23,329 bases of DNA. Origin: a virus. A model generated the notes under the pieces. That model did no database searches, was not told the origin of the DNA, and saw only the letters and a list, made by a program, of their open reading frames with translations. This document shows positions 2,526 through 23,329 of the stretch, piece after piece. The stretch is from positions 1 through 23,329 of IMG/VR virus record IMGVR_UViG_3300020147_000027; one strand, written 5' to 3'. The stretch's first letter is position 1, and each line of letters opens with the position of its first letter. Position numbers and translations under genes: made by a program.

Positions 2526-2674
2526 GCGAAGCGGAAGCCGAGGCGTGGAAAAACCGGATGGCCGAGCTTTCCGAGCGCCGGCATCGGGTGAAAGCCGAGC
2601 TGCGCGCCATTGAGAGCGCCATCTGCGAAATCATGCTTTTCGTTCTCGGGTTTGGAGGCCGCCCCCGTGGCTAA
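2522..2674 (+). CDS. Small charged, probably coiled-coil hypothetical protein (50 aa)
   Basis: The ATG overlaps the previous stop (ATGA). Residues 1-35 are a continuous charged Ala/Glu/Arg run (MSEAEAEAWKNRMAELSERR and onward) that looks like a single amphipathic helix or coiled coil. A short hydrophobic, Gly-rich end follows (IMLFVLGFGGRPRG). The end overlaps the GTG start of the nuclease gene by 8 bp. No known family is recognised. It is real mainly by position in the overlap chain and by composition. Confidence 0.55.
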   Translation: MSEAEAEAWKNRMAELSERRHRVKAELRAIESAICEIMLFVLGFGGRPRG

Positions 2675-3002
2675 GAATAGCCGAGCGAAAGGGTGCAGGG
2701 GCGAGCTCGAATTCGCCAAGGTATTGGCCGACCGCAAGCTGAGCGCCCGCCGTGGCCAGCAATTCAGCGGCGGCACCGACAGCCCCGACGTCATTTGCAC
2801 GTCGCTGACAGATATCCATTTCGAAGTGAAGCGTGTTGAGGCAGGCAATCTCTATATCTGGCTCGCCCAGGCGATCCGTGATGCTGGCGAAAAGAAAGTG
2901 CCGATCGTCGCGCATCGCCGCAACAAGCAGGATTGGGTAGCCATCCTGCCGATGGACGATTTGCTAGACCTGCTCCTATTGCGAGAGGGGACATTGATAT
3001 GA
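2667..3002 (+). CDS. PDDEXK-family nuclease / Holliday-junction-resolvase-like protein
   Basis: The product has 111 residues from GTG 2667, which is preceded by GGAG nine bases upstream; an in-frame ATG at 2610 would add an unlikely 19 residues. The PDDEXK signature is visible in order: Glu in GELEF near residue 15, Asp in the TDSPDV strand near residue 39, then FEVKR (E-x-K) near residue 55. A Gln follows in the helix at WLAQAI. This matches the small phage PDDEXK proteins, often labelled resolvase or recombination nuclease, that act on branched or damaged DNA during replication. Its place directly behind the polymerase supports a replication or recombination role. The stop overlaps the next ATG (ATGA, 2999-3002). 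The exact substrate cannot be read from the sequence. Confidence 0.75.
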   Translation: MAKNSRAKGCRGELEFAKVLADRKLSARRGQQFSGGTDSPDVICTSLTDIHFEVKRVEAGNLYIWLAQAIRDAGEKKVPIVAHRRNKQDWVAILPMDDLLDLLLLREGTLI

Positions 3003-5613: not shown

Positions 5614-5922
5614 TTATTGACGGTTGCCGCGCACCAAGGCGCAGGCGGTTTCGTGCATCGCTTCGGCTTGCGCCCACGTCGAGCATCGCTCCTGATACTT
5701 GTCGTGCTCGCCGCCGAAGATCATCGTCTCGAATAGCAATGGCGGGCCGCCGTTCCAACTGTGGTCAAGACCGAGGAACACAGTCGACACGTCCACGTCA
5801 CCGATCTGCGTGCGGGCGACGCGGCACCTGTCTTCATTCTCGTGCTTCCAACGCGCGCCCTGCATGAAATCCTCCGCGAGGACCGGCCGGTTGTCAGCAT
5901 CGAGGGTGTACCAGTCGCTCAT
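5614..5922 (-). CDS. Conserved-type phage hypothetical protein (102 aa)
   Basis: ATG 5922 is preceded by GAAGGA on the minus strand. The product (MSDWYTLDADNRPVLAEDFM...) continues with VSTVFLGLDHSWNGGPPLLF, then FETMIFGGEHDKYQERCSTW and AQAEAMHETA. It is a pattern I associate with a small widespread phage and prophage family of unknown function. There is no membrane segment or catalytic motif. It is the middle gene of a three-gene leftward transcript driven from the promoter at 6192-6220. Confidence 0.7.
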   Translation of the reverse strand: MSDWYTLDADNRPVLAEDFMQGARWKHENEDRCRVARTQIGDVDVSTVFLGLDHSWNGGPPLLFETMIFGGEHDKYQERCSTWAQAEAMHETACALVRGNRQ

Positions 5923-5936
5923 AAGTGGGGTTTCCT

Positions 5937-6164
5937 TCAGACTGTCTCGCTGTTGGTTTCCTGACGGAACATACCACGAGCATGGCTCACGGCATCGGTG
6001 AAGTAGGCGAAGCCGCCGCACTGGCCTCTGGAAAGAACAGAGTACGGGTCCGTCTCGCCTTCAAGGCGATAGAAGATCGTCCAACGGCGCCGCCAGCCGT
6101 CAATATCGGCATAGATCGTGCCGTCTGGCCGGTACAGCGTGCGCCCTTTGAGCTTCAACTTCAT
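5937..6164 (-). CDS. Small hypothetical protein (75 aa), first gene of a leftward unit
   Basis: ATG 6164 follows GGAGAACGGCC on the minus strand, a good Shine-Dalgarno similar to but not identical with the repeated leader found further right. The product (MKLKLKGRTLYRPDGTIYAD...) looks like a small beta-rich protein ending in a short helix. I recognise no family. It starts about 20 nt after the predicted transcription start of the leftward promoter, and is divergent from the HTH gene. Confidence 0.65.
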   Translation of the reverse strand: MKLKLKGRTLYRPDGTIYADIDGWRRRWTIFYRLEGETDPYSVLSRGQCGGFAYFTDAVSHARGMFRQETNSETV

Positions 6165-6191
6165 GGCCGTTCTCCATGTTCATGGCGAACG

Positions 6192-6220
6192 TGGATAGCA
6201 AATCGCTTGACGACTGTCAA
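6192..6220 (-). promoter_or_regulatory. Leftward sigma70-type promoter with overlapping TTGAC dyad
   Basis: On the minus strand TTGACA (6220-6215), a 17-nt spacer and TATCCA (6197-6192) with an extended TGC form a good promoter for the genes at 6164-5422. The dyad TTGAC-gact-GTCAA (6207-6220) covers the -35 box, and another TGTCAA lies at 6227-6232. This is a natural site for a repressor such as the adjacent HTH protein; binding is inferred. Confidence 0.65.
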
Positions 6221-6282
6221 CAAACCTGTCAAACAATTATTTGAAAATCGGATTTGCGGAATACCCCGTGAGACGACGTGAA

Positions 6283-6477
6283 ATGCGGCTTGAGGACGTA
6301 CAGACGATGTTGCGCAAGCAATGCGCGGATGCCGGAAGCCTGACGGCGTTCGCGGAAGCGCACAGCCTCAATAAGCAATACGTCTCGCAGGTTTTGAACG
6401 GCCACCGCCCGCCGTCTGAGCGCCTATGCGACGCGCTCGGCATCGTGTCGGACGGTGAGCGGTGGATTAAGAAATAG
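6283..6477 (+). CDS. Cro/CI-like helix-turn-helix regulator
   Basis: The product has 64 residues from ATG 6283 (MRLEDVQTMLRKQC...). In-frame GTG 6268 or TTG 6241 could add 5 or 14 residues. Residues 18-53 (GSLTAFAEAHSLNKQYVSQV, LNGHRPPSERLCDALGI) form a classic lambda-repressor-type HTH, with recognition helix NKQYVSQVLNG and the downstream helix that picks the reading LCDALGI. The size fits Cro-like or YdaS-like phage regulators without a dimerisation or cleavage domain. It is divergent from a leftward promoter covered by a TTGAC dyad, the usual arrangement of a phage switch, so it probably represses or tunes that promoter. Whether it maintains lysogeny cannot be told. Confidence 0.82.
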   Translation: MRLEDVQTMLRKQCADAGSLTAFAEAHSLNKQYVSQVLNGHRPPSERLCDALGIVSDGERWIKK

Positions 6478-6486
6478 GAGAGGCAG

Positions 6487-6783
6487 ATGGAAAAGCCGGT
6501 GATTGAGCAGTGGGCGGAAGACGAATACCGCGAGGGCGTTTCGGCCGGTGCCGCTGCGCGCCAACTCTGCCGCACGCTCGGATCGAACGGCGCCTATCCG
6601 ACGCTCAAGCGCATGCTTGAGGACATGCTGGCGGATCGCAACCGCGCATCGTTCGACCGCTCGTGCATCCTGCGTGCTGTCGATGTGGCGGCGCCCGAAG
6701 ATGCACCGCGCATTCGCCGTGAGAGCTACATTCGCAATAACCCCGACGCGCCGATTGCTGGTGCGGGCGCGGGCAACAACTAG
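6487..6783 (+). CDS. Hypothetical protein behind the HTH regulator (98 aa)
   Basis: ATG 6487 has an excellent Shine-Dalgarno (AGGAGAGG) that overlaps the end of the HTH gene, so the two are co-transcribed. The product (MEKPVIEQWAEDEYREGVSA...) is helical and charged; its middle region (RQLCRTLGSNGAYPTLKRML) might hold a helix-turn-helix-like fold, but I cannot identify one. It ends with a Gly/Ala-rich tail. It is convergent with the leftward block, whose last stop lies 17 bp away. The function is unknown; a partner of the regulator is possible. Confidence 0.7.
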   Translation: MEKPVIEQWAEDEYREGVSAGAAARQLCRTLGSNGAYPTLKRMLEDMLADRNRASFDRSCILRAVDVAAPEDAPRIRRESYIRNNPDAPIAGAGAGNN

Positions 6784-6799
6784 TCCCGCAAAGGAGCCG

Positions 6800-6997
6800 T
6801 TAGATCGGCGCTAGCTCGCAATGCTCGAATTCGAATGGCTGGAATACAAACTCCATCGCGTGGCCAGCCTCAATCTCGACGTCGAGCACGGCAGTGGCCA
6901 CGATCACGCGCGTGCCGATATCCGTGCAGCGATAGAGCTGCGCCGAGCGATAGGCGGACGTGAATTCGCAGCCGATATAGAAGTCAGCGAGCGTCAT
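6800..6997 (-). CDS. Small beta-rich hypothetical protein (65 aa)
   Basis: ATG 6997 lies inside the end of the upstream gene (14-bp overlap). The product (MTLADFYIGCEFTSAYRSAQ...) continues LYRCTDIGTRVIVATAVLDV and then reads EIEAG. This is a small SH3-like beta pattern frequently seen in phage hypothetical proteins that begin by describing a field such as LYRCTDIGTR. There is no catalytic motif. It is the last gene of the leftward accessory block. Confidence 0.65.
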   Translation of the reverse strand: MTLADFYIGCEFTSAYRSAQLYRCTDIGTRVIVATAVLDVEIEAGHAMEFVFQPFEFEHCELAPI

Positions 6998-8661: not shown

Positions 8662-9010
8662 ATGCGCGCTCCTCATACCCAGCTTGTGATAGGGCCAGCG
8701 GAAAGCCGGCCATCTGCAGCTCATCGTAGTTGTGATTGATCCAGCGCGCCTTGTCGCGGTGTTGCATGACGACTGCCCAACGGCACGAGCCGAACGGCGC
8801 GCAGCGGTCGAGCGTGATGATTTCCACGCCGTAGGTGCGCAGGAACTTGCGCACGCGCACAACGTAGACTGCGATTGTCTCTCGAGCGCCGAGCGGGCCG
8901 CCATTGGGATCATCGCCCCATATCTGGTCAAAGATATCCCGGCTCGAAACGGATTGCCGCTTGCAAAGCAAATCGAGGATGAGGCGCTCGCGATATGCCA
9001 GGGGTTTCAT
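8654..9010 (-). CDS. Stand-alone OmpR/PhoB-type winged-helix DNA-binding protein
   Basis: The product has 118 residues from ATG 9010, which overlaps the upstream stop (ATGA). Residues 3-72 follow the Trans_reg_C pattern. YRERLILDLLCKRQSVSSRD corresponds to the first helices; IFDQIWGDDPNGGPLGARET matches the L..VWG....RTVDVHI region; and IAVYVVRVRKFLRTYGVEII matches the recognition helix (VRVRKFL) plus wing. There is no receiver domain. The C-terminus (WAVVMQHRDKARWINHNYDE) is unlike known output regulators. It is probably a phage transcription factor acting on its own leftward block or on host promoters. Confidence 0.72.
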   Translation of the reverse strand: MKPLAYRERLILDLLCKRQSVSSRDIFDQIWGDDPNGGPLGARETIAVYVVRVRKFLRTYGVEIITLDRCAPFGSCRWAVVMQHRDKARWINHNYDELQMAGFPLALSQAGYEERAYG

Positions 9011-9255
9011 TGCGCACATTCCTCGCAATCGTCCGTGCCCATGTGCGTGCAATCGTTCCTGGGCTTTTCGGCGGCCCCCTGCCACTCCCCGCACCAATTC
9101 GAATTCTTGGTGGCGGCAAAGGCGGACATTTCGATAACGCCGCGCGGAGTGCTGACCATGTGGACGCTCGGCGGCAGGCGATGGCACCGGCCCTCATCGT
9201 TGGTGATGAGCGGCGGGCGCTTGAAGAAACGGCATGATTTGCAATTGTCAGTCAT
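9007..9255 (-). CDS. Cysteine-rich small protein (82 aa), probable metal site
   Basis: ATG 9255 is chosen because the product then begins MTDNCKSCRFFKRPP, a typical N-terminal CxxC start; the Shine-Dalgarno is weak (GGGG). Cys5, Cys8, Cys24 and Cys55 form a C-x2-C...C...C pattern for one zinc or iron-sulfur site, and three more cysteines (69, 77, 80) stand at the end. Such small CxxC proteins are common in phage accessory regions, and I know no function. It is the first gene after the terminator at 9339-9374 and the head of the overlap chain down to 7473. Confidence 0.65.
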   Translation of the reverse strand: MTDNCKSCRFFKRPPLITNDEGRCHRLPPSVHMVSTPRGVIEMSAFAATKNSNWCGEWQGAAEKPRNDCTHMGTDDCEECAQ

Positions 9256-9338
9256 GGCAATGCCCCAGGAAGAAAAAGGGTTTCCGGCTAGTTGGAGCCT
9301 CGGCCGCAAACCCTCAAAAGCACAGGCGCAAATCAGAT

Positions 9339-9374
9339 GGTAATAGAAAAAGCCCCACGTTTCCATAGGGCTTT
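9339..9374 (-). terminator. Leftward Rho-independent terminator
   Basis: On the minus strand AAAGCCC (9374-9368), a 12-nt loop and GGGCTTT (9355-9349) are followed by TTCTATT, a U-rich tail. It lies about 40 bp after the stop of the gene ending at 9416 and separates it from the gene at 9255. On the plus strand the same stem is followed, after GCAC, by a run of T, so weaker bidirectional action is possible. Confidence 0.68.
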
Positions 9375-9415
9375 AGCACTTTTTTAAAGTATTTTATGAG
9401 GACGCAAATGCAACT

Positions 9416-9637
9416 CTAGCCGGCCTTCTGATCCTCATAGCGCCACAGCTCGATTTCATCGAATTCCTCGATCATCTCGCGCAGGCGGGTGGCATCGCGA
9501 GCCTGCTTGTGGAACTGCTCGGAAATGCGGCCGGTATCGAGGCCGGCGAACTTGGTGTATTCGTCGGCGGCCAAACGCAACGCTTCAACGATGGTGTGCA
9601 TCTCATTGCTGGTAAGCTGTCTATTCTTCGCAGTCAT
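9416..9637 (-). CDS. Small helical hypothetical protein (73 aa) with repeated leader
   Basis: ATG 9637 is chosen because it stands seven bases behind GGAG of leader copy 2; an ATG two codons earlier (9643) is too close to the site. The product (MTAKNRQLTSNEMHTIVEAL...) is almost fully helical and acidic with a basic segment (ARDATRLREMIEEFDEIELW). No family is recognised. It stands alone between two leftward terminators, so it forms its own transcript or is read through from upstream. Confidence 0.65.
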   Translation of the reverse strand: MTAKNRQLTSNEMHTIVEALRLAADEYTKFAGLDTGRISEQFHKQARDATRLREMIEEFDEIELWRYEDQKAG

Positions 9638-9642
9638 GGTCA

Positions 9643-9656
9643 TTCTCCGCTGAGCT
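9643..9656 (-). repeat. Repeated leader / Shine-Dalgarno element, copy 2
   Basis: Minus-strand AGCTCAGCGGAGAA, followed by TGACC and ATG 9637. It is identical to the other three copies over 14 nt. Confidence 0.9.
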
Positions 9657-9671
9657 TGATTGATGGTGGGG

Positions 9672-9699
9672 AAAATGGGGCCAGGATTTACGCGGCCCC
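9672..9699 (-). terminator. Leftward Rho-independent terminator
   Basis: On the minus strand GGGGCC (9699-9694), an 11-nt loop and GGCCCC (9682-9677) are followed by ATTTTCC. It lies 15 bp after the stop of the gene ending at 9714 and just before leader copy 2. Confidence 0.6.
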
Positions 9700-9713
9700 C
9701 TGCTACCCGTGAT

Positions 9714-10244
9714 TTACTTGGCCGCGTGCAGGTCGCGATAGATGTCGCGGATAACCTCATCCATCGATATCGCTTGGCCAGTAGTGGTGCGGGCCCAAAT
9801 GGTGAGGCCGTGCCAGTCGCGCACAATACGCTCATCGCGGGCCTCAAGCTTGCGGGCCAGCCAATCGCTCACAATCCAATGCTCGTAGACTTCCCCGGCG
9901 TATTCCTGGGGATCAAGGTTGTGAACTTCGCAATACTCTTTCGCGGCTTGGCCTTGTGTCGTGTGCCAGTCGCAGGCGGTGTCATTGGCCGACCAATCGC
10001 CCTCATCGTCATCTCCGCCGCGTTCCCATGTGGCCCCGTTATCCTCGGCGCACTCAATGTAAGCATCATCGCCAATGACGGGTGACCACAGCTCAATATT
10101 CTGTTCGGCATCGTCGGCCAAGTCGTCAGGGTTGCCGCGATCCGTGGTCGTCAGGTCATAAATGAGCGTCGAAACGCAATACACGACTTCACGCGCAACT
10201 AGGTCACTGCAACCGCGCTCAATATCTTGTTCGGTGGTGTCCAT
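9714..10244 (-). CDS. Acidic hypothetical protein (176 aa) of a phage/plasmid family
   Basis: ATG 10244 is seven bases behind GGAG of leader copy 3; the upstream ATG at 10250 is too close. The product is strongly acidic in the middle (GGDDDEGDWSANDTACDWHT). The last third, YEHWIVSDWLARKLEARDER then DWHGLTIWARTTTGQAISMD and VIRDIY, is a motif I have met in small phage and plasmid proteins without known function. The acidic surface resembles DNA-mimic proteins, but that is only a guess. A terminator follows the gene. Confidence 0.68.
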   Translation of the reverse strand: MDTTEQDIERGCSDLVAREVVYCVSTLIYDLTTTDRGNPDDLADDAEQNIELWSPVIGDDAYIECAEDNGATWERGGDDDEGDWSANDTACDWHTTQGQAAKEYCEVHNLDPQEYAGEVYEHWIVSDWLARKLEARDERIVRDWHGLTIWARTTTGQAISMDEVIRDIYRDLHAAK

Positions 10245-14551: not shown

Positions 14552-16279
14552 ATGGCAGAGAGCCGCAGCCGTGAGATTACGCGCTACGAGGGGATGAACC
14601 CGCGCCAGATCGATGACGCCGAGCAGAACTTGGTGGACATGATTACGCGCGAGTTCAATCAGCTCGCCAGCTATCGCAACATGGGTTTCGCTGAGCAGTG
14701 GGAAGAATGCGCTTCGCTCATCCTGCCGTCTGCTCGAGGCACGTTCTTTTACGGCAGCACCACCACACCGGGCGAGAAGAAAACGCAGCTTCAGGTGGAT
14801 GCCACCGGCATGATGGCGCTGCACCGGTTCGCAGCGATCTGCGACAGCTTGCTGACGCCGCGCAACATGATGTGGCACGCGCTCGAGGCGGACGATCCGT
14901 ACGTGATGAAGGATCGCGCCACGCGCCTGTGGTTTGAGGAAACGCAGCGCATCCTGTTCAATCACCGCTATGCGCCGACCGCGAACTTCAGCTCGCAAAA
15001 CCAAAACAATTTCCAATCGCTCGGTGCCTTCGGCAACATGAGCATGTATATCGATCCGTTCGATGGTGCCGGTGGCGGGCTCCGCTACAAGGGCTGTCCG
15101 CTCGGTGAGACGTTCTGGCGCGAAAACCATCAAGGGCTGATCGACGGCTGCACGCGCTGGTTTAAGCTGAAGGCGTGGCAGGCCGAGCAGAAGTGGCCCG
15201 GCCGGCTCCCGCAGGTTCTGCAGCAGGCTCTCAAGTCGGGCTCCGTGCAGGACTTCGATTTCCTCCACAGCGTCATGCCGCGCGATGACTATGACCCGCA
15301 AGCGCCTGACGAGCGCCGGTTCCGCTACCGCTCGGCCTACGTCTGCGTCGCCGGCAAGTGCCTCATGTGGAAAGAGGGCGAGCCGATGGAGAGCGGCTAT
15401 CGCTCATTCCCCTACGCGCCCGGCCGCTACGATCAGGCGCCAAACGAGGCATATGGCCGTGGCCCCGCCATGATGGTGCTGCCGTCGCTCAAGACGCTCA
15501 ATGCGCAGAAGCGCACCTTCCTGAAGCAAGGGCACCGCGCCGCGGATCCTGTGCTGCTGTCGGCCGACGACGGCATTATGAATTTCTCGATGCGCCCGGG
15601 TGCGATGAACAAGGGCGGCATGACTAACGATGGCAAGCCCCTCGTGGGCATCCTGCCGACCGGCGACATTGCGACGAATGAAAAGATGATGGACATGGAA
15701 AAGGGCCTCATCGCCCAGGCCTTCCTCATCGATCTGTTCCAAATCCTCACCGAAACGCCGCAGATGACCGCGACCGAGGTTATCGAGCGGACGCACGAAA
15801 AGGGCATTCTTTTGGCCCCAACAGTTGGGCGGCAGCAATCCGAATATCTAGGACCGATGATTGATCGAGAGTTGGATGTGCTGGCCGCCCAAAACCTTTT
15901 GCCCCCAATGCCGCCGCGCCTCGCGGAAGCCGCGGGATCCTACAAGGTTGTCTATACGTCGCCGCTTTCGAAGGCGCAGCACGCACAGGAAGTCGCCGGC
16001 ACGCTGCGCGTGATGGAGAACATCCGCGAGATTGTTGCCATCACGGGCGATCCCTCGCCGTTCGATCGCTTCGATATCGACACGTTCGTGGCGGACGCCG
16101 CGCGCATCGGCGGCACGCGCGAGAGCTGGATCGCAACCGATGAGGCCATGCAGGCGAAGCGCGAGAACCGCGCGGCTGCTCAGCAGGCGCAGCAAGACGT
16201 GCAGTCGCTTCCGGGCAAGGCGGCAATCATGAAGGCGCAGGCGACTGTCGCCAAGTCACAACCGCTCGGAGGCCGATGA
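14552..16279 (+). CDS. Portal / head-to-tail connector protein
   Basis: This 575-residue product starts at ATG 14552 with AAAGGA upstream, two bases after the previous stop. It shows the head-to-tail connecting protein pattern of T7-like and BPP-1-like podoviruses. The start REITRYEGMN...R..W EECASLILPS comes first, then LHRFAAICDSLLTPRNMMWH near residue 100. FGNMSMYIDP lies in the middle, and RGPAMMVLPSLKTLNAQKRT near residue 310. The helical end has TATEVIERTHEKG and LGPMIDREL. It forms the ring through which DNA enters and leaves the head. Codon use matches its neighbours. The C-terminal Gln-rich tail (AAAQQAQQDVQ) is typical too. Confidence 0.93.
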   Translation: MAESRSREITRYEGMNPRQIDDAEQNLVDMITREFNQLASYRNMGFAEQWEECASLILPSARGTFFYGSTTTPGEKKTQLQVDATGMMALHRFAAICDSLLTPRNMMWHALEADDPYVMKDRATRLWFEETQRILFNHRYAPTANFSSQNQNNFQSLGAFGNMSMYIDPFDGAGGGLRYKGCPLGETFWRENHQGLIDGCTRWFKLKAWQAEQKWPGRLPQVLQQALKSGSVQDFDFLHSVMPRDDYDPQAPDERRFRYRSAYVCVAGKCLMWKEGEPMESGYRSFPYAPGRYDQAPNEAYGRGPAMMVLPSLKTLNAQKRTFLKQGHRAADPVLLSADDGIMNFSMRPGAMNKGGMTNDGKPLVGILPTGDIATNEKMMDMEKGLIAQAFLIDLFQILTETPQMTATEVIERTHEKGILLAPTVGRQQSEYLGPMIDRELDVLAAQNLLPPMPPRLAEAAGSYKVVYTSPLSKAQHAQEVAGTLRVMENIREIVAITGDPSPFDRFDIDTFVADAARIGGTRESWIATDEAMQAKRENRAAAQQAQQDVQSLPGKAAIMKAQATVAKSQPLGGR

Positions 16280-16809
16280 TGCGTTGGGTAATCCACGTTG
16301 CCGTTTGCGCGATACTGGCGGCGGGCTTCCTGCAGTTGCCGGCGATCGCCAAGGATTGGTCGCTCAGCGCTATGCACGGCGGCCCGCGCTCGGAAGTCAT
16401 GTATCGGTCGGCGCCCCGGTGGCGTGAGGCGCATGAGACGCGCCAGCTTCGGCGCCGGCATCATCGCCCGTACCGCGACACGCGATGGACGGATGCCGAC
16501 AGCGAGATTGAGTACCGCATGCGCGATGACCGCAAGCGCTTCGGCTGCGTGGCCGAGCGTGTCAAGGGCCTCGGTACTCAATGGGTCGGTAAGGCCGGCG
16601 CGCTCGAGGCGGCGAAAAAGGATTGGATGGAGCACGTTCGCTATTACCACGGCGAGACGTTCTTGGACCTCGATAACGCCGATCACTTCCGTGCGCGCTG
16701 CTCGCGCGTGTCGATTGGCGAAGTCGTCGGACAGGTGACATATCGCTGCGAGATGGTGGCGACGCCGTGCAAGGGTGACATGCTCGATGGGGCTGAGGCG
16801 GCGAAATGA
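16276..16809 (+). CDS. Secreted (signal-peptide) protein of unknown function
   Basis: The ATG at 16276 overlaps the portal stop; the next ATG at 16279 is an alternative. Residues 1-26 (MMRWVIHVAVCAILAAGFLQ then LPAIAKD) are a clear Sec signal peptide with a likely cleavage after AIA. The mature 150 residues begin with a very basic stretch (RREAHETRQLRRRHHRPYR is its flavour) and hold four cysteines (in FGCVAE, ARCSRV, YRCEMV and TPCKG), fit for disulfides in the periplasm. The fold is not recognised. It is unusual between portal and scaffold genes, and a moron-type gene is possible. Confidence 0.72.
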   Translation: MMRWVIHVAVCAILAAGFLQLPAIAKDWSLSAMHGGPRSEVMYRSAPRWREAHETRQLRRRHHRPYRDTRWTDADSEIEYRMRDDRKRFGCVAERVKGLGTQWVGKAGALEAAKKDWMEHVRYYHGETFLDLDNADHFRARCSRVSIGEVVGQVTYRCEMVATPCKGDMLDGAEAAK

Positions 16810-19759: not shown

Positions 19760-19972
19760 ATGGCAGACCGTTTTATCGGCCTCAACCGTGCGCAGGAGGG
19801 CTTCAAACCCTCCGACTTCACGGTGGGCTCGAGCACCGGCAGCACCGACATGGAGCTCCGTTACTCAGACGCCGCGTCATTGACCCGAAAGGACATCGTG
19901 AATGGCCTGAAGGCAATGATCCGCTACGTCGAGAGCAACATGCTTCAGGGCGGTGTGGCGCCGGATCTGTGA
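19760..19972 (+). CDS. Small virion-module protein (70 aa)
   Basis: ATG 19760 follows GAGGAG. The product MADRFIGLNRAQEGFKPSDF continues with TVGSSTGSTDMELRYSDAAS and then LTRKDIVNGLKAMIRYVESN. The pattern of a disordered start, a D.E.R strand and the helix LTR.D....L.A..R is widespread as a tiny gene next to capsid genes. The function is unknown. It is 7 bp before the next gene, in the same transcript. Confidence 0.7.
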   Translation: MADRFIGLNRAQEGFKPSDFTVGSSTGSTDMELRYSDAASLTRKDIVNGLKAMIRYVESNMLQGGVAPDL

Positions 19973-19979
19973 GGCAGCG

Positions 19980-20267
19980 ATGGATGAGGCAGTAAAGTTC
20001 TCGAACATCGCGGCAACGCCAACGGCCTTCCCCCTGCGCGGGGGAAGGTACGCCGTCGCAGTCATCGGCACATTTGACGATGACCCGGCAGGCGCCGTGA
20101 CGCTGCAGATGCTGGGGCCGGATGGCACCACGTATCAGACGGTCTCGGCGGGTGTGACTTTCGCGGCGAGCGGTTACGCCGTCGCGGAGCTCGCACCCGG
20201 GCAATACCGACTACTCGTGGCCGATGTGACTGCGCTCTACGCGCAGATCATTCGAATTCCGCATTAG
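19980..20267 (+). CDS. Small beta-sandwich virion-module protein (95 aa)
   Basis: ATG 19980 follows GAGGCAG. The product (MDEAVKFSNIAATPTAFPLR...) continues GGRYAVAVIGTFDDDPAGAV, then TLQMLGPDGTTYQTV and LAPGQYRLLVADVTALYAQI. It consists of strands with a GG.Y.V..IGT..GG motif, typical for a small jelly-roll-like protein of head or tail modules. Its homologues in other phages carry no function. No signal or membrane segment is seen. Confidence 0.72.
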   Translation: MDEAVKFSNIAATPTAFPLRGGRYAVAVIGTFDDDPAGAVTLQMLGPDGTTYQTVSAGVTFAASGYAVAELAPGQYRLLVADVTALYAQIIRIPH

Positions 20268-20276
20268 GAGTGAAAA

Positions 20277-20756
20277 ATGGGACGCAGAGTTTACCAAGGC
20301 GGGTTCGATAACGTCTCTATCGGCACCGCAGTACAGGACATTTTCTCGCTGCTCGCACCCGCGAGCAAGGGCATCATCCTGCACCACATCCACCTTGAGG
20401 CAGCGAGCATCACCACCGCTGCTCAGATCCGTATGCGCCTCAAGCGCGGCTCGGCAACTGTCACCAACGGTTCGGGCGGTTCGGCACCAACGCCAACACC
20501 GACCGATGCCGGCGACAGCTTGGCCGCTGCGGCGACACTGCACTGTAACGACACGACACAGGCCACAACGTCGGGCGCATTCTCCGTGCTCGGCTACTTC
20601 CAATGGAACGTGTTGCTGCCGTTTGACTACATGCCAGGGCCCGAGGCTGAGGATCGCGAGAAAGCTCTTATCTCGCAGGCCCTCATTCTCGATCTACCTG
20701 CTGTGATCGTGGCCACGACTGTCAGTGGCTTCATCAAGTGGGAAGAAATCCCGTAA
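20277..20756 (+). CDS. Virion-associated protein (159 aa)
   Basis: ATG 20277 has AGGAG upstream. The product has the pattern IFSLLAPASKGIILHHIHLE, MRLKRGSATVTNGSGGSAPT, PTPTDAGDSLAAAATLHCND and FVIVATTVSGFIKWEEIP-like strands at the end. I recognise it as a family common in head/tail modules of GC-rich phages (LKRG....GSGGSAPTP.P.D.GD.A). Function is unproven, and a minor structural protein is likely. It is followed directly by a terminator, so it closes the head transcript. Confidence 0.7.
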   Translation: MGRRVYQGGFDNVSIGTAVQDIFSLLAPASKGIILHHIHLEAASITTAAQIRMRLKRGSATVTNGSGGSAPTPTPTDAGDSLAAAATLHCNDTTQATTSGAFSVLGYFQWNVLLPFDYMPGPEAEDREKALISQALILDLPAVIVATTVSGFIKWEEIP

Positions 20757-20784
20757 GGCGCGTGTTCCGGTAGTGCGTAACCCG

Positions 20785-20822
20785 TGGCCACCCTGAGTAA
20801 CCCTTGGGGTGGCCATCTTTCT
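20785..20822 (+). terminator. Rho-independent terminator ending the head-gene transcript
   Basis: TGGCCACCC (20785-20793) pairs perfectly with GGGTGGCCA (20807-20815), giving a 9-bp stem and a 13-nt loop, followed by TCTTTCT. It separates the head genes from the glycine-rich pair, which begins at 20837. Confidence 0.78.
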
Positions 20823-20836
20823 GAATCGGGAATGCC

Positions 20837-22453
20837 GTGGATACGAGCGAATTCCAGAAAGCTGCTGCGCGCATGTCGCTCATTCCCTTCGGGCCGCCTG
20901 AGGGGGCGCCCGTGCGGAAGCGTCGCGTGGTGCTGCGCACTGTAGCATCTGTGCTTGGTGTGCTCGTCTGCACAGTCTGGACATTCGACTACGATAAGAA
21001 TACGCGGTGTGTGCTGCAAACCGAGCAGCGCGTACAGCAGATTGATAGCCATGACCCGGCAAAAACATTGCGGCCGGTGCTGGCATATTCCGTTTTCATT
21101 TACCTCACCACGACGGGTTCAAACAATTGGTCGGTTCCGGCTGATTGGAATAGTACCGATAATCTTGTTGAGGCCATAGGCGGTGGTGGTAGCGGTGCCT
21201 CTGGCGGGACGATAAGTGCCACCATTGGTCGCGGAGGCGGCGGAGGCGGCGGCGGGGCCTTCGCGCTAAAGGCCAACATCGGGCTTTCACCGGGGGGCAC
21301 CGCGCCCTACTCGATCAACGCGGGCGCAAATACCAACTTCAATTCCGGCGAGGTTATTGCTGTCGCCGGAAGCGGGGCGTCTGTGCAGAATGGTGGCGCT
21401 GGTGGCGCTGCTGGTTCTTGCACCCCGAGCACAGGCGCAATCTCAGGAGGCGGTGGGAGTAACGGCGCGGCGGGCTCCCCACTTGGCACCGCTCGCAATG
21501 GCGGCAACGGTGGAACCGCTGCGGGGCCAACGGGCATCGGCACCGGTTGGACAACGCCTTCGGTGGCAGGGGCTGGTACGGGTGGGGCAGGATCCACATC
21601 AGGTACAAATCCCGGTGGCACTGGTAACAACTATGGCGGCGGCGGCGGCGGCGGCCGGTGGACAGGCACGTTCGCCACTGGCGGTGGCTCGGGCGCACCG
21701 GGCATTATTCGCATTAGCTACACGCCCGCGGCAACGTGGATCACGTCATGGGTGCGATTCATCAGCCCGCTCAAGCAGCGGCAGCACCCACCACGTACCC
21801 GGTTCTTTACGCAGGCACTCAATCAAGCGGTGCCGAAGGCGTACGTGACGCCGCCGCAGCCGAGCAATCTGTCGTGGTTTCAGCAGAACCCGATCGTGAA
21901 ACGCAAGCCCATGAAGGGCCGAAAGCGTTTCATCATTCGGCCGTTGCATCGCGTGCCGCGTCAGCTCACGACGCTTCCGCACTCCAATCTGTCGTGGTTT
22001 CAACAGAACCCGATCATTAAAGGCAAATTCCGCCCGCGCGGGCGCTTTTGCATTCAATTCATCTACCGCCGCAAGATTGATATCCACTTCCTGCCGCTGC
22101 CGAGCAATTTGACGTGGGCGCAGCAGAACCCGCTCATCAAACGCAAGCTGAAGCCGCGCAAGCGGTACGTCATCAAGTTCAAGCTCGTGAAGGTGCCGAA
22201 GGCGATCGTACGGCCACCACCCCCGAGCAATCTGTCGTGGAAGCGGTATCCCGGTTTCCCTGGCATCAACAAAGCCCGTGGCCGTAAGCGGTTCAAGATT
22301 ATGGGCCGGTGGCCGCACTTGCCACGCAACGTCATCGGTCAGTTCGTGCCGGTCACGGCGTACTCACCGGAAGGCCCCGGTTTTCAGAAGTGGCGTGTCA
22401 TTAAGCCGAAACTCGAGCGCACCCGGGTTGTGGATGGGAAGCTGCAAAAATGA
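20837..22453 (+). CDS. Membrane-anchored glycine-rich protein with basic C-terminal repeats
   Basis: The product has 538 residues from GTG 20837 (ATG 20873 is an in-frame alternative). There is a short N-terminal part with RKRR (residues 27-30), then one membrane helix VVLRTVASVLGVLVCTVWTF (31-50), which suggests N-inside topology. A linker leads to LTTTGSNNWSVPADWNSTDN, the start of the phage glycine-rich domain. Residues about 113-290 are Gly/Ala/Ser/Thr rich. The end (302-500) holds four clear repeats of about 40 residues around SNLSWFQQNP, all very basic. Glycine-rich domains occur in phage tail and receptor-binding proteins; the membrane anchor and the basic repeats are unusual for these. 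It is the first of two paralogues. Confidence 0.82.
   Translation: MDTSEFQKAAARMSLIPFGPPEGAPVRKRRVVLRTVASVLGVLVCTVWTFDYDKNTRCVLQTEQRVQQIDSHDPAKTLRPVLAYSVFIYLTTTGSNNWSVPADWNSTDNLVEAIGGGGSGASGGTISATIGRGGGGGGGGAFALKANIGLSPGGTAPYSINAGANTNFNSGEVIAVAGSGASVQNGGAGGAAGSCTPSTGAISGGGGSNGAAGSPLGTARNGGNGGTAAGPTGIGTGWTTPSVAGAGTGGAGSTSGTNPGGTGNNYGGGGGGGRWTGTFATGGGSGAPGIIRISYTPAATWITSWVRFISPLKQRQHPPRTRFFTQALNQAVPKAYVTPPQPSNLSWFQQNPIVKRKPMKGRKRFIIRPLHRVPRQLTTLPHSNLSWFQQNPIIKGKFRPRGRFCIQFIYRRKIDIHFLPLPSNLTWAQQNPLIKRKLKPRKRYVIKFKLVKVPKAIVRPPPPSNLSWKRYPGFPGINKARGRKRFKIMGRWPHLPRNVIGQFVPVTAYSPEGPGFQKWRVIKPKLERTRVVDGKLQK
21744..22330 (+). repeat. Tandem repeats of about 120 bp coding a basic SNLSW module
   Basis: Repeats start with SNLSW/SNLTW at residues 343, 383, 423 and 464 of the glycine-rich protein (codons at 21863, 21983, 22103 and 22226; spacing 120, 120 and 123 bp). 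A degenerate copy (SWVRFISP) lies 42 residues before the first. Each has W.QQNP, K.K and R.RF.I parts. Copies 1 and 2 are nearly identical in DNA around CAATCTGTCGTGGTTTCA, pointing to recent duplication. Confidence 0.88.
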
Positions 22454-23329
22454 AGCACGCAAAAGAATATCTGTCGGTGCTCGAGCAGCTCGGCGTTAAG
22501 CCTACGGGCGATGGCTGCTCGCGCTACATTCGCACTAAGCGCGTGCGCTTGAGGGCATGGGCGGTCATTGCCGGCGCGATCGTGCTCACGTCCGTGGTGT
22601 GGACGGTTAGATACGATGGGTCCACAAAAGCTCTAATCAGCGCCGAGCGCACCGAGGTCCACAACGACTACACGCTCAATCAGCGACGCTACCTCGCGAC
22701 GGTGGTGTTCCTTGCCGGCACGGGCGGCGTGGATACGTGGCAAGTCCCCGAGAAGTGGAACAACGCCGACAATTACATTGAGGCACTAGGCCCAGGCGGT
22801 AATGGCGGCTCAGCGTCGGGAAGTGTTGGTGGCGGCAGCGCTGGCGGTGGCGCGTACGCCAAAACGAACAATGTGCAGCTCGTGCCGCGCGGCACGGCGA
22901 GCTACCGCGTCGGCCTCGGCGGCACCCATAATTCAACGTGGCTTTCGAATACTGGTGTGGCCCCCACGACCACGGCGCAGGGCGTACTTGCGGAGTGCGG
23001 CTATAACGCCAGCAGTACCTCGGGGAACATCGGTGGCCGCGTCGCACAGAGCATCGGTGACACGCTATTCCGTGGTGGCAACGGTAAGAACGGCGGCACG
23101 ACGTTTAGTGGCTTGTTCACGTTCCCTTCGTACGCGGGTGCGGGCGGCGCGGCCGGCCCCGGTGGGCGCGGTGGCGACGGCTTAGCCGGCCAGAATGGGG
23201 CCATCTTTTGGGGCGGTGGCGCGGGTGCCGGCAATAGCGGCGCGGGGGCGGATTCCGCCAGCTCAACTGGTGCGGCCGGTAGCGATGGCGGCGGCGATGG
23301 CGGCACAAATGGGCCGGGGGGCGCCGGCA
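22450..23329 (+). CDS. Second membrane-anchored glycine-rich protein, 3' end outside window
   Basis: ATG 22450 overlaps the previous stop (ATGA); the frame stays open to the window end (at least 293 residues). The product starts MKHAKEYLSVLEQLGVKPTG, has a basic RTKRVRLR before one membrane helix (residues about 33-53, AWAVIAGAIVLTSVVWTV), a linker, then GGVDTWQVPEKWNNADNYIE and ALGPGGNGG. This order and spacing repeat those of the upstream gene (VWTFDYDKNTR against VWTVRYDGSTK; NWSVPADWNSTDN against TWQVPEKWNNADN), so the two are paralogues. The visible rest is Gly/Ala/Ser rich with AYAKTNNVQL and SYRVGLGG. The end of the protein is not known. Confidence 0.85.
   Translation, partial: MKHAKEYLSVLEQLGVKPTGDGCSRYIRTKRVRLRAWAVIAGAIVLTSVVWTVRYDGSTKALISAERTEVHNDYTLNQRRYLATVVFLAGTGGVDTWQVPEKWNNADNYIEALGPGGNGGSASGSVGGGSAGGGAYAKTNNVQLVPRGTASYRVGLGGTHNSTWLSNTGVAPTTTAQGVLAECGYNASSTSGNIGGRVAQSIGDTLFRGGNGKNGGTTFSGLFTFPSYAGAGGAAGPGGRGGDGLAGQNGAIFWGGGAGAGNSGAGADSASSTGAAGSDGGGDGGTNGPGGAG

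Follow-up and report, generated by a model that had tools for sequence, protein, structure and literature searches.

Fibre-tip-type glycine-rich proteins with a putative N-terminal signal-anchor in a fragment of a HTVC010P-like podovirus

The virus record IMGVR_UViG_3300020147_000027 is one linear fragment of 23,329 bases, which was analysed at full length and is referred to here as the window. Its last two genes, glyA and glyB, encode proteins in which a glycine-rich domain is preceded by a basic N-terminus and a hydrophobic segment. This build raises the question of whether the glycine-rich domain is carried on the virion, as the tip of a tail fibre, or is held in the envelope of the infected host. 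The original prediction favoured proteins held in the host membrane. The features of the locus are listed in Table 1.

Comparison of the late genes assigns the window to a HTVC010P-like podovirus, of which it is a fragment. A major capsid protein (PF19821, 1e-52), a portal protein (PF12236, 5e-89), a Bbp19-like protein and a terminase were identified, and the gene order is common to the window and its relatives. Among phage records, matches to the capsid protein came mostly from HTVC010P-type pelagiphages and Manatee Spring podoviruses; among viral contigs it matched 46 loci, the closest being 50-63% identical. Rfam and tRNA scans of the window returned nothing, and a promoter scan found nothing above chance. 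Two further genes were noted: a 177-aa ORF at 16276-16809, in the middle of the head module between the portal and Bbp19-like genes, has a likely signal peptide (MMRWVIHVAVCAILAAGFLQLPAIA) and no confident family, and a small PDDEXK-type nuclease (PF24608) is encoded at 2610-3002, directly after the family A DNA polymerase gene.

Table 1 Features of the glyA/glyB locus, in positions of the window. KD19, Kyte-Doolittle hydropathy over 19 residues; octanol sums in kcal/mol.
Feature	Position	Strand	Basis
Left edge of cargo slot: conserved gene of about 100 aa, in relatives directly before tail tubular A	19953..20267	+	phmmer to relatives; spacing
g20277, 159 aa, first gene of cargo slot	20277..20756	+	tblastn 1e-9; map
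Terminator-like hairpin between g20277 and glyA, 14-bp stem, T-rich tail	20784..20816	+	Fold of 80-nt gap
glyA, 538 aa	20837..22453	+	ORF; homology to glyB; fold
glyA residues 1-30, basic N-terminal segment, ends VRKRR	20837..20926	+	Sequence; K/R asymmetry
glyA residues 31-50, hydrophobic segment, putative signal-anchor	20927..20986	+	KD19 1.92; octanol sum -5.7
glyA residues 51-84, linker, possible beta-hairpin	20987..21088	+	Low-confidence strands 43-53, 58-69
glyA residues 85-298, TNF-like and glycine-rich fibre-tip domain	21089..21730	+	Pam3 gp24 fold; PF21722
glyA residues about 340-508, four basic repeats, three of them of W-x-Q-x-N-P type	21854..22360	+	Repeat profile
glyB, at least 293 aa, glyA paralogue, open 3' end at window end	22450..23329	+	ORF; homology
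glyB residues 32-54, hydrophobic segment, putative signal-anchor	22543..22611	+	KD19 1.74; octanol sum -5.3
glyB glycine-rich domain, incomplete	22696..23329	+	Alignment with glyA and relatives

Sequence comparison identifies glyA and glyB as homologous. The two proteins are 38% identical, a tblastn search with glyB matched glyA at 1.6e-15, and local alignment of the first 110-115 residues gave a score of 123, against 25.7 ± 4.5 (maximum 55) in 2000 shuffles; similarity far above chance is seen also for the part before the glycine-rich domain alone. glyA starts with a GTG codon and glyB with an ATG that lies within a 4-nt overlap with the glyA stop. The build that had been described as shared was confirmed for the basic N-terminus, the hydrophobic segment at the same place and the glycine-rich domain, but the common entry motif had been given one residue too short: it reads W-x-V-P-x-x-W-N, with two residues between P and W. 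In glyA the hydrophobic segment is followed by a linker, the TNF-like/glycine-rich domain and four basic repeats of about 40 aa, and the last 238 residues hold 54 K+R and 4 D+E.

Direct relatives of the pair were found neither by blastn or tblastn against 50,697 phage records nor by single-sequence viral scans, and a search with an alignment of glyA and glyB was needed to reach other phage proteins of the same build. A tree of ten members places glyA as sister to the protein of contig L065 (99/99), with glyB on a long, separate branch; of the two copies in L079, copy a is nearer to the L051 protein than to copy b, with moderate support. A recent duplication, as initially supposed, is not borne out, since glyA groups with the gene of another phage and the pair is 38% identical. 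The two genes were either duplicated long ago or acquired separately.

From its modelled fold, the glycine-rich part is very probably a phage adhesin or receptor-binding module. AlphaFold predicted residues 85-298 of glyA mostly with good confidence, except for a loop at about 223-243. The best structural match was the tail fibre gp24 of cyanophage Pam3 (PDB 7yfw; Z 17.9, rmsd 2.6 Å over 177 residues, 31% identity), which shares the TNF-like and glycine-rich distal domain, and the agreement in fold covers the whole domain, as in fibre tips of the Pam3 type. Foldseek returned Pam3 gp24 in PDB 7ypx at E 4.5e-8, and a family profile run against PDB sequences recovered the fibre of Pam3 at E 1.9e-9. 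Pfam Gly_rich_2 (PF21722) was matched by 7 of 8 family members (best 3.2e-11), with a member from L079 passing the gathering cut-off; glyA aligned to positions 1-225 of 226 at 12.6 bits, below the cut-off of 24.3. The head of Pam3 gp24 has been assigned to receptor recognition, on structure (PMC9608196). The earlier assignment of the glycine-rich part to a tail or receptor-binding type is therefore upheld by both the fold and the family profile. Other structural matches were the Bxb1 tail-tip protein (Z 12.8) and the extracellular domain of ALK/LTK (Z about 7-8); S16 gp38 was not among the matches listed, which excludes nothing. ALK/LTK places the same fold outside a single membrane span, but it is a eukaryotic receptor kinase whose span follows the domain, and the likeness is a structural analogy only.

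The N-terminus sets the pair apart from Pam3 gp24, in which an alpha-helical bundle docks to the baseplate, whereas glyA and glyB have a basic, hydrophobic N-terminus and a linker. In both proteins K/R residues are denser before the hydrophobic segment than after it (six before and three after in glyB), an asymmetry that fits an N-in/C-out signal-anchor, and their combined basic and hydrophobic character is far above that of background ORFs, but the core is short. Neither a lipobox ([LVI]-[ASTVI]-[GAS]-C) at the end of the segment nor an evident small-x-small signal peptidase I site after it was found in the sequence of glyA or glyB. When the N-terminal 79 or so residues were compared with PHROGs and PDB, nothing convincing was returned and no virion attachment domain was found, a match that had been named in advance as evidence against an anchor. 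AlphaFold gave no confident helix for the hydrophobic segment of glyA and weakly suggested strands from residue 43. Because the core is short and the helix is not confident, the membrane helix first described is a prediction only; what stands of it is a hydrophobic segment at a matching place in both proteins. On balance the sequence leans towards insertion of the N-terminus in a membrane.

Judged by sequence, this N-terminal module recurs in unrelated phages. It consists of a K/R cluster, a hydrophobic stretch of 11-18 residues in which a glycine is usually central, and a linker of some 40 or more residues, and it was found joined to the glycine-rich domain in nine further phage contigs (L065, L079 (twice), L051, L092, L096, L099, L049, L128 and L165), giving 12 proteins in 10 contigs when glyA and glyB are included. 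KD19 is 0.9-1.5 in seven of ten members, and RR motifs of the twin-arginine kind are present in some members only. A basic-plus-hydrophobic filter was passed by 9 of 10 members, which are not a random sample because they were gathered with patterns from the glyA/glyB pair, and by 20-25 of about 850 other ORFs (about 2-3%), of which several are either duplicates of members or genuine membrane or secreted proteins; octanol sums agree with the filter. Most of the collected homologues of the glycine-rich domain start at or near the domain and have no module. Such domains are therefore usually without an N-terminal extension, and an anchor on them is unusual, as had been supposed.

Homologues in L102, L150 and L191 carry Sec-type signal peptides (read by eye) in place of the module, as do neighbouring fibre-like genes in these contigs. 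These signal peptides favour export of the predicted proteins, and export would therefore be reached by another N-terminus too. Runs of fibre, spike and glycine-rich genes with apparent signal peptides or hydrophobic leaders were seen at L191:2693-4816, L150:1558-4733 and L102:3112-10816, and may represent an exported fibre module.

Searches for the source of the module gave little. The N-termini of L079 copy a, L092 and L102 and the whole L065 protein had no match among phage isolates. An N-terminal profile was run against 397 genomes from the order and 385 from the class to which the L065 genome belongs, and its sole real match was that genome itself; marginal matches in L121 and L122 were rejected, as they sit among ordinary chromosomal genes. 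A cellular membrane-protein origin of the module was thus not found within these roughly 780 genomes. Two members have a more elaborate organisation. In L079, two anchored glycine-rich paralogues (5884-6846 and 8796-10094) are each coupled to a fibre gene of their own, and copy b also has an IPT/TIG-like domain. L096:5938-11358 encodes an anchored protein of 1806 aa that has a second glycine-rich stretch as well as many W-W-x-Q-P-P-D-L-L repeats in a long array; the suggestion that these repeats correspond to those of glyA found no support in the repeat profile.

glyA and glyB lie in a slot whose content differs between relatives. In 20 HTVC010P-like loci, many of them near-duplicates and about 13 independent, the homologue of the conserved gene at the left edge is followed after 4-28 bp by tail tubular A. 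Cargo is inserted before tail tubular A in L013, L016 and L025, and extra genes are found there also in L029 and L003. Among the cargo of relatives are a beta-helix protein and a GDSL hydrolase, neither of which reaches the Pfam cut-off, a pectate-lyase-like protein and a head-spike-fibre-domain protein, each with a signal peptide, and a GDP-mannose dehydratase. The HTVC010P-like locus L029:11875-15319 has three consecutive signal-peptide proteins before tail tubular A, with matches to a head-spike type (NF048003, 4e-11) and a lyase type (PF12708, 1.6e-11). In the window the slot is at least 3 kb long and holds g20277, the hairpin, glyA and glyB; the sequence stops short of tail tubular A. A homologue of g20277 is near a gene annotated as pectate lyase in Manatee Spring phages. 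The 80-nt gap before glyA folds at -33.7 kcal/mol (z -2.55); its hairpin, which a consensus scan did not call, is perhaps a terminator separating the head genes from glyA/glyB.

Two explanations bear directly on this neighbourhood. A place among structural genes and a hydrophobic N-terminus would suit virion proteins that insert their N-termini into the host membrane while the DNA enters, but the ejection proteins of podophages are internal to the virion and their genes follow tail tubular B, where the candidates of the relatives lie, and the variable slot content and an adhesin domain with no obvious place in a channel make this role improbable. Lysogenic-conversion or accessory surface adhesins unlinked to phage receptors, for example in aggregation or attachment of infected cells, are comparably unlikely. 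The variable slot, the terminator-like hairpin and the basic repeat tail of glyA would agree with them, and N-terminally anchored cellular adhesins are a general theme in work on diversity-generating retroelements (PMC8144416); against them, the genes of the relatives sit directly in fibre modules and the window, itself only a fragment, shows no sign of lysogeny.

The link to fibre genes is close in the relatives. In six of eight tested (L065, L079 (twice), L051, L049 and L092), the anchored gene overlaps or abuts an upstream fibre gene, beginning inside it or at its stop codon; these fibres have no such leader themselves, and five of them end in a common domain of the phrog_35197 type, which is a possible fibre-tip dock. 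Slot content and fibre coupling together point to host recognition. The fibre end domain (about 115 aa; phrog_35197 has no function assigned) was seen in fibres of L065, L079, L051, L049, L055, L056 and L061, at loci whose glycine-rich genes may or may not have anchors, and it often stands immediately before these genes. g20277 was tried as a stand-alone copy of this domain and rejected for want of significant similarity.

This coupling is an argument that glyA and glyB are instead virion adhesins which cap a fibre as S16/T2-type gp38 caps gp37, the N-terminus being a buried docking or trimerisation segment. The fibre-tip fold, the marginal hydrophobicity and the lack of a confident helix agree with such a tip, the weak matches of members include a PHROG named 'tail fiber assembly', the shared end domain makes the arrangement gp37-gp38-like, and S16 gp38 attaches by N-terminal helices on a hydrophobic platform (PMC9608196). 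However, glycine-rich proteins that lack the extension are also accompanied by fibres with the same end domain, immediately before them in L056 and at a greater distance in L055 and L061; docking to such fibres thus does not require the extension. The dense K/R before the hydrophobic segment favours membrane insertion, PMC9608196 describes no basic/hydrophobic leader for gp38, and homologues carry Sec signal peptides. The window, moreover, has no such fibre and no gp37-like gene upstream: while the six relatives place the gene directly after a fibre as in gp38, glyA is preceded at 80 bp by g20277, which is not a recognised fibre. A virion tip is a plausible contender, if a somewhat less probable one than envelope anchoring, and the two readings are close.

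The reading tentatively preferred, short of being probable outright, is that GlyA and GlyB are fibre-tip adhesins kept in the inner membrane of the host by a signal-anchor that is not cleaved. The proteins would be made late in infection, and the basic/hydrophobic N-terminus would insert N-in/C-out, a topology deduced from its residues, thereby placing the adhesin domain in the envelope. There it would probably bind the receptor, or a receptor precursor, used by the phage's own fibres. Masking or sequestering of the receptor, by which later phages would be excluded or progeny kept from sticking to debris, is speculation by analogy with T5 Llp and Cor proteins, which are encoded beside receptor-binding genes. 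Llp is an exported periplasmic exclusion protein whose gene adjoins that of the receptor-binding protein pb5 (PMC9586334). T5 Llp and T1-type Cor are likened to the pair by description, as exported envelope proteins beside a receptor-binding gene (PMC9586334), with export predicted for glyA and glyB; Llp, however, is a small lipoprotein, and exclusion by glyA/glyB is only proposed.

The anchored reading is supported by the Pam3-type adhesin fold and by recurrence of the module on the same domain in other phages. Sec-type signal peptides on this domain elsewhere, as well as the L029 spike proteins with signal peptides encoded ahead of tail tubular A, also speak in its favour. Against it stand the short cores and modest KD19 values of most members together with the helix that AlphaFold did not predict with confidence, and the overlap with leaderless fibre genes, which fits a virion tip better. 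Placement in the inner membrane would also confine the adhesin to the periplasm, at a distance from surface receptors, and no isolate in the phage collection has the module. It is possible, although slightly less probable than either of the two leading readings, that the family is an undescribed class of proteins in which a receptor-binding domain has been moved off the virion and planted in the host envelope by a mobile signal-anchor, or by a Sec signal peptide in its cousins, as a self-made receptor mask.

The domain itself is already known; a limited full-text search of open-licence literature gave no description of its fusion to the module, of the recurrence across unrelated phages or of the secreted cousins. 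Should the anchor function, copies of a phage's own receptor-binding fold serve as envelope proteins, which would be a general and evolvable route to superinfection exclusion, with a specificity that follows the fibre. If the proteins belong to the virion instead, the module would be a new mode of attachment for glycine-rich tips. The module is a recognisable signature for annotation in uncultured podoviruses and other tailed phages.
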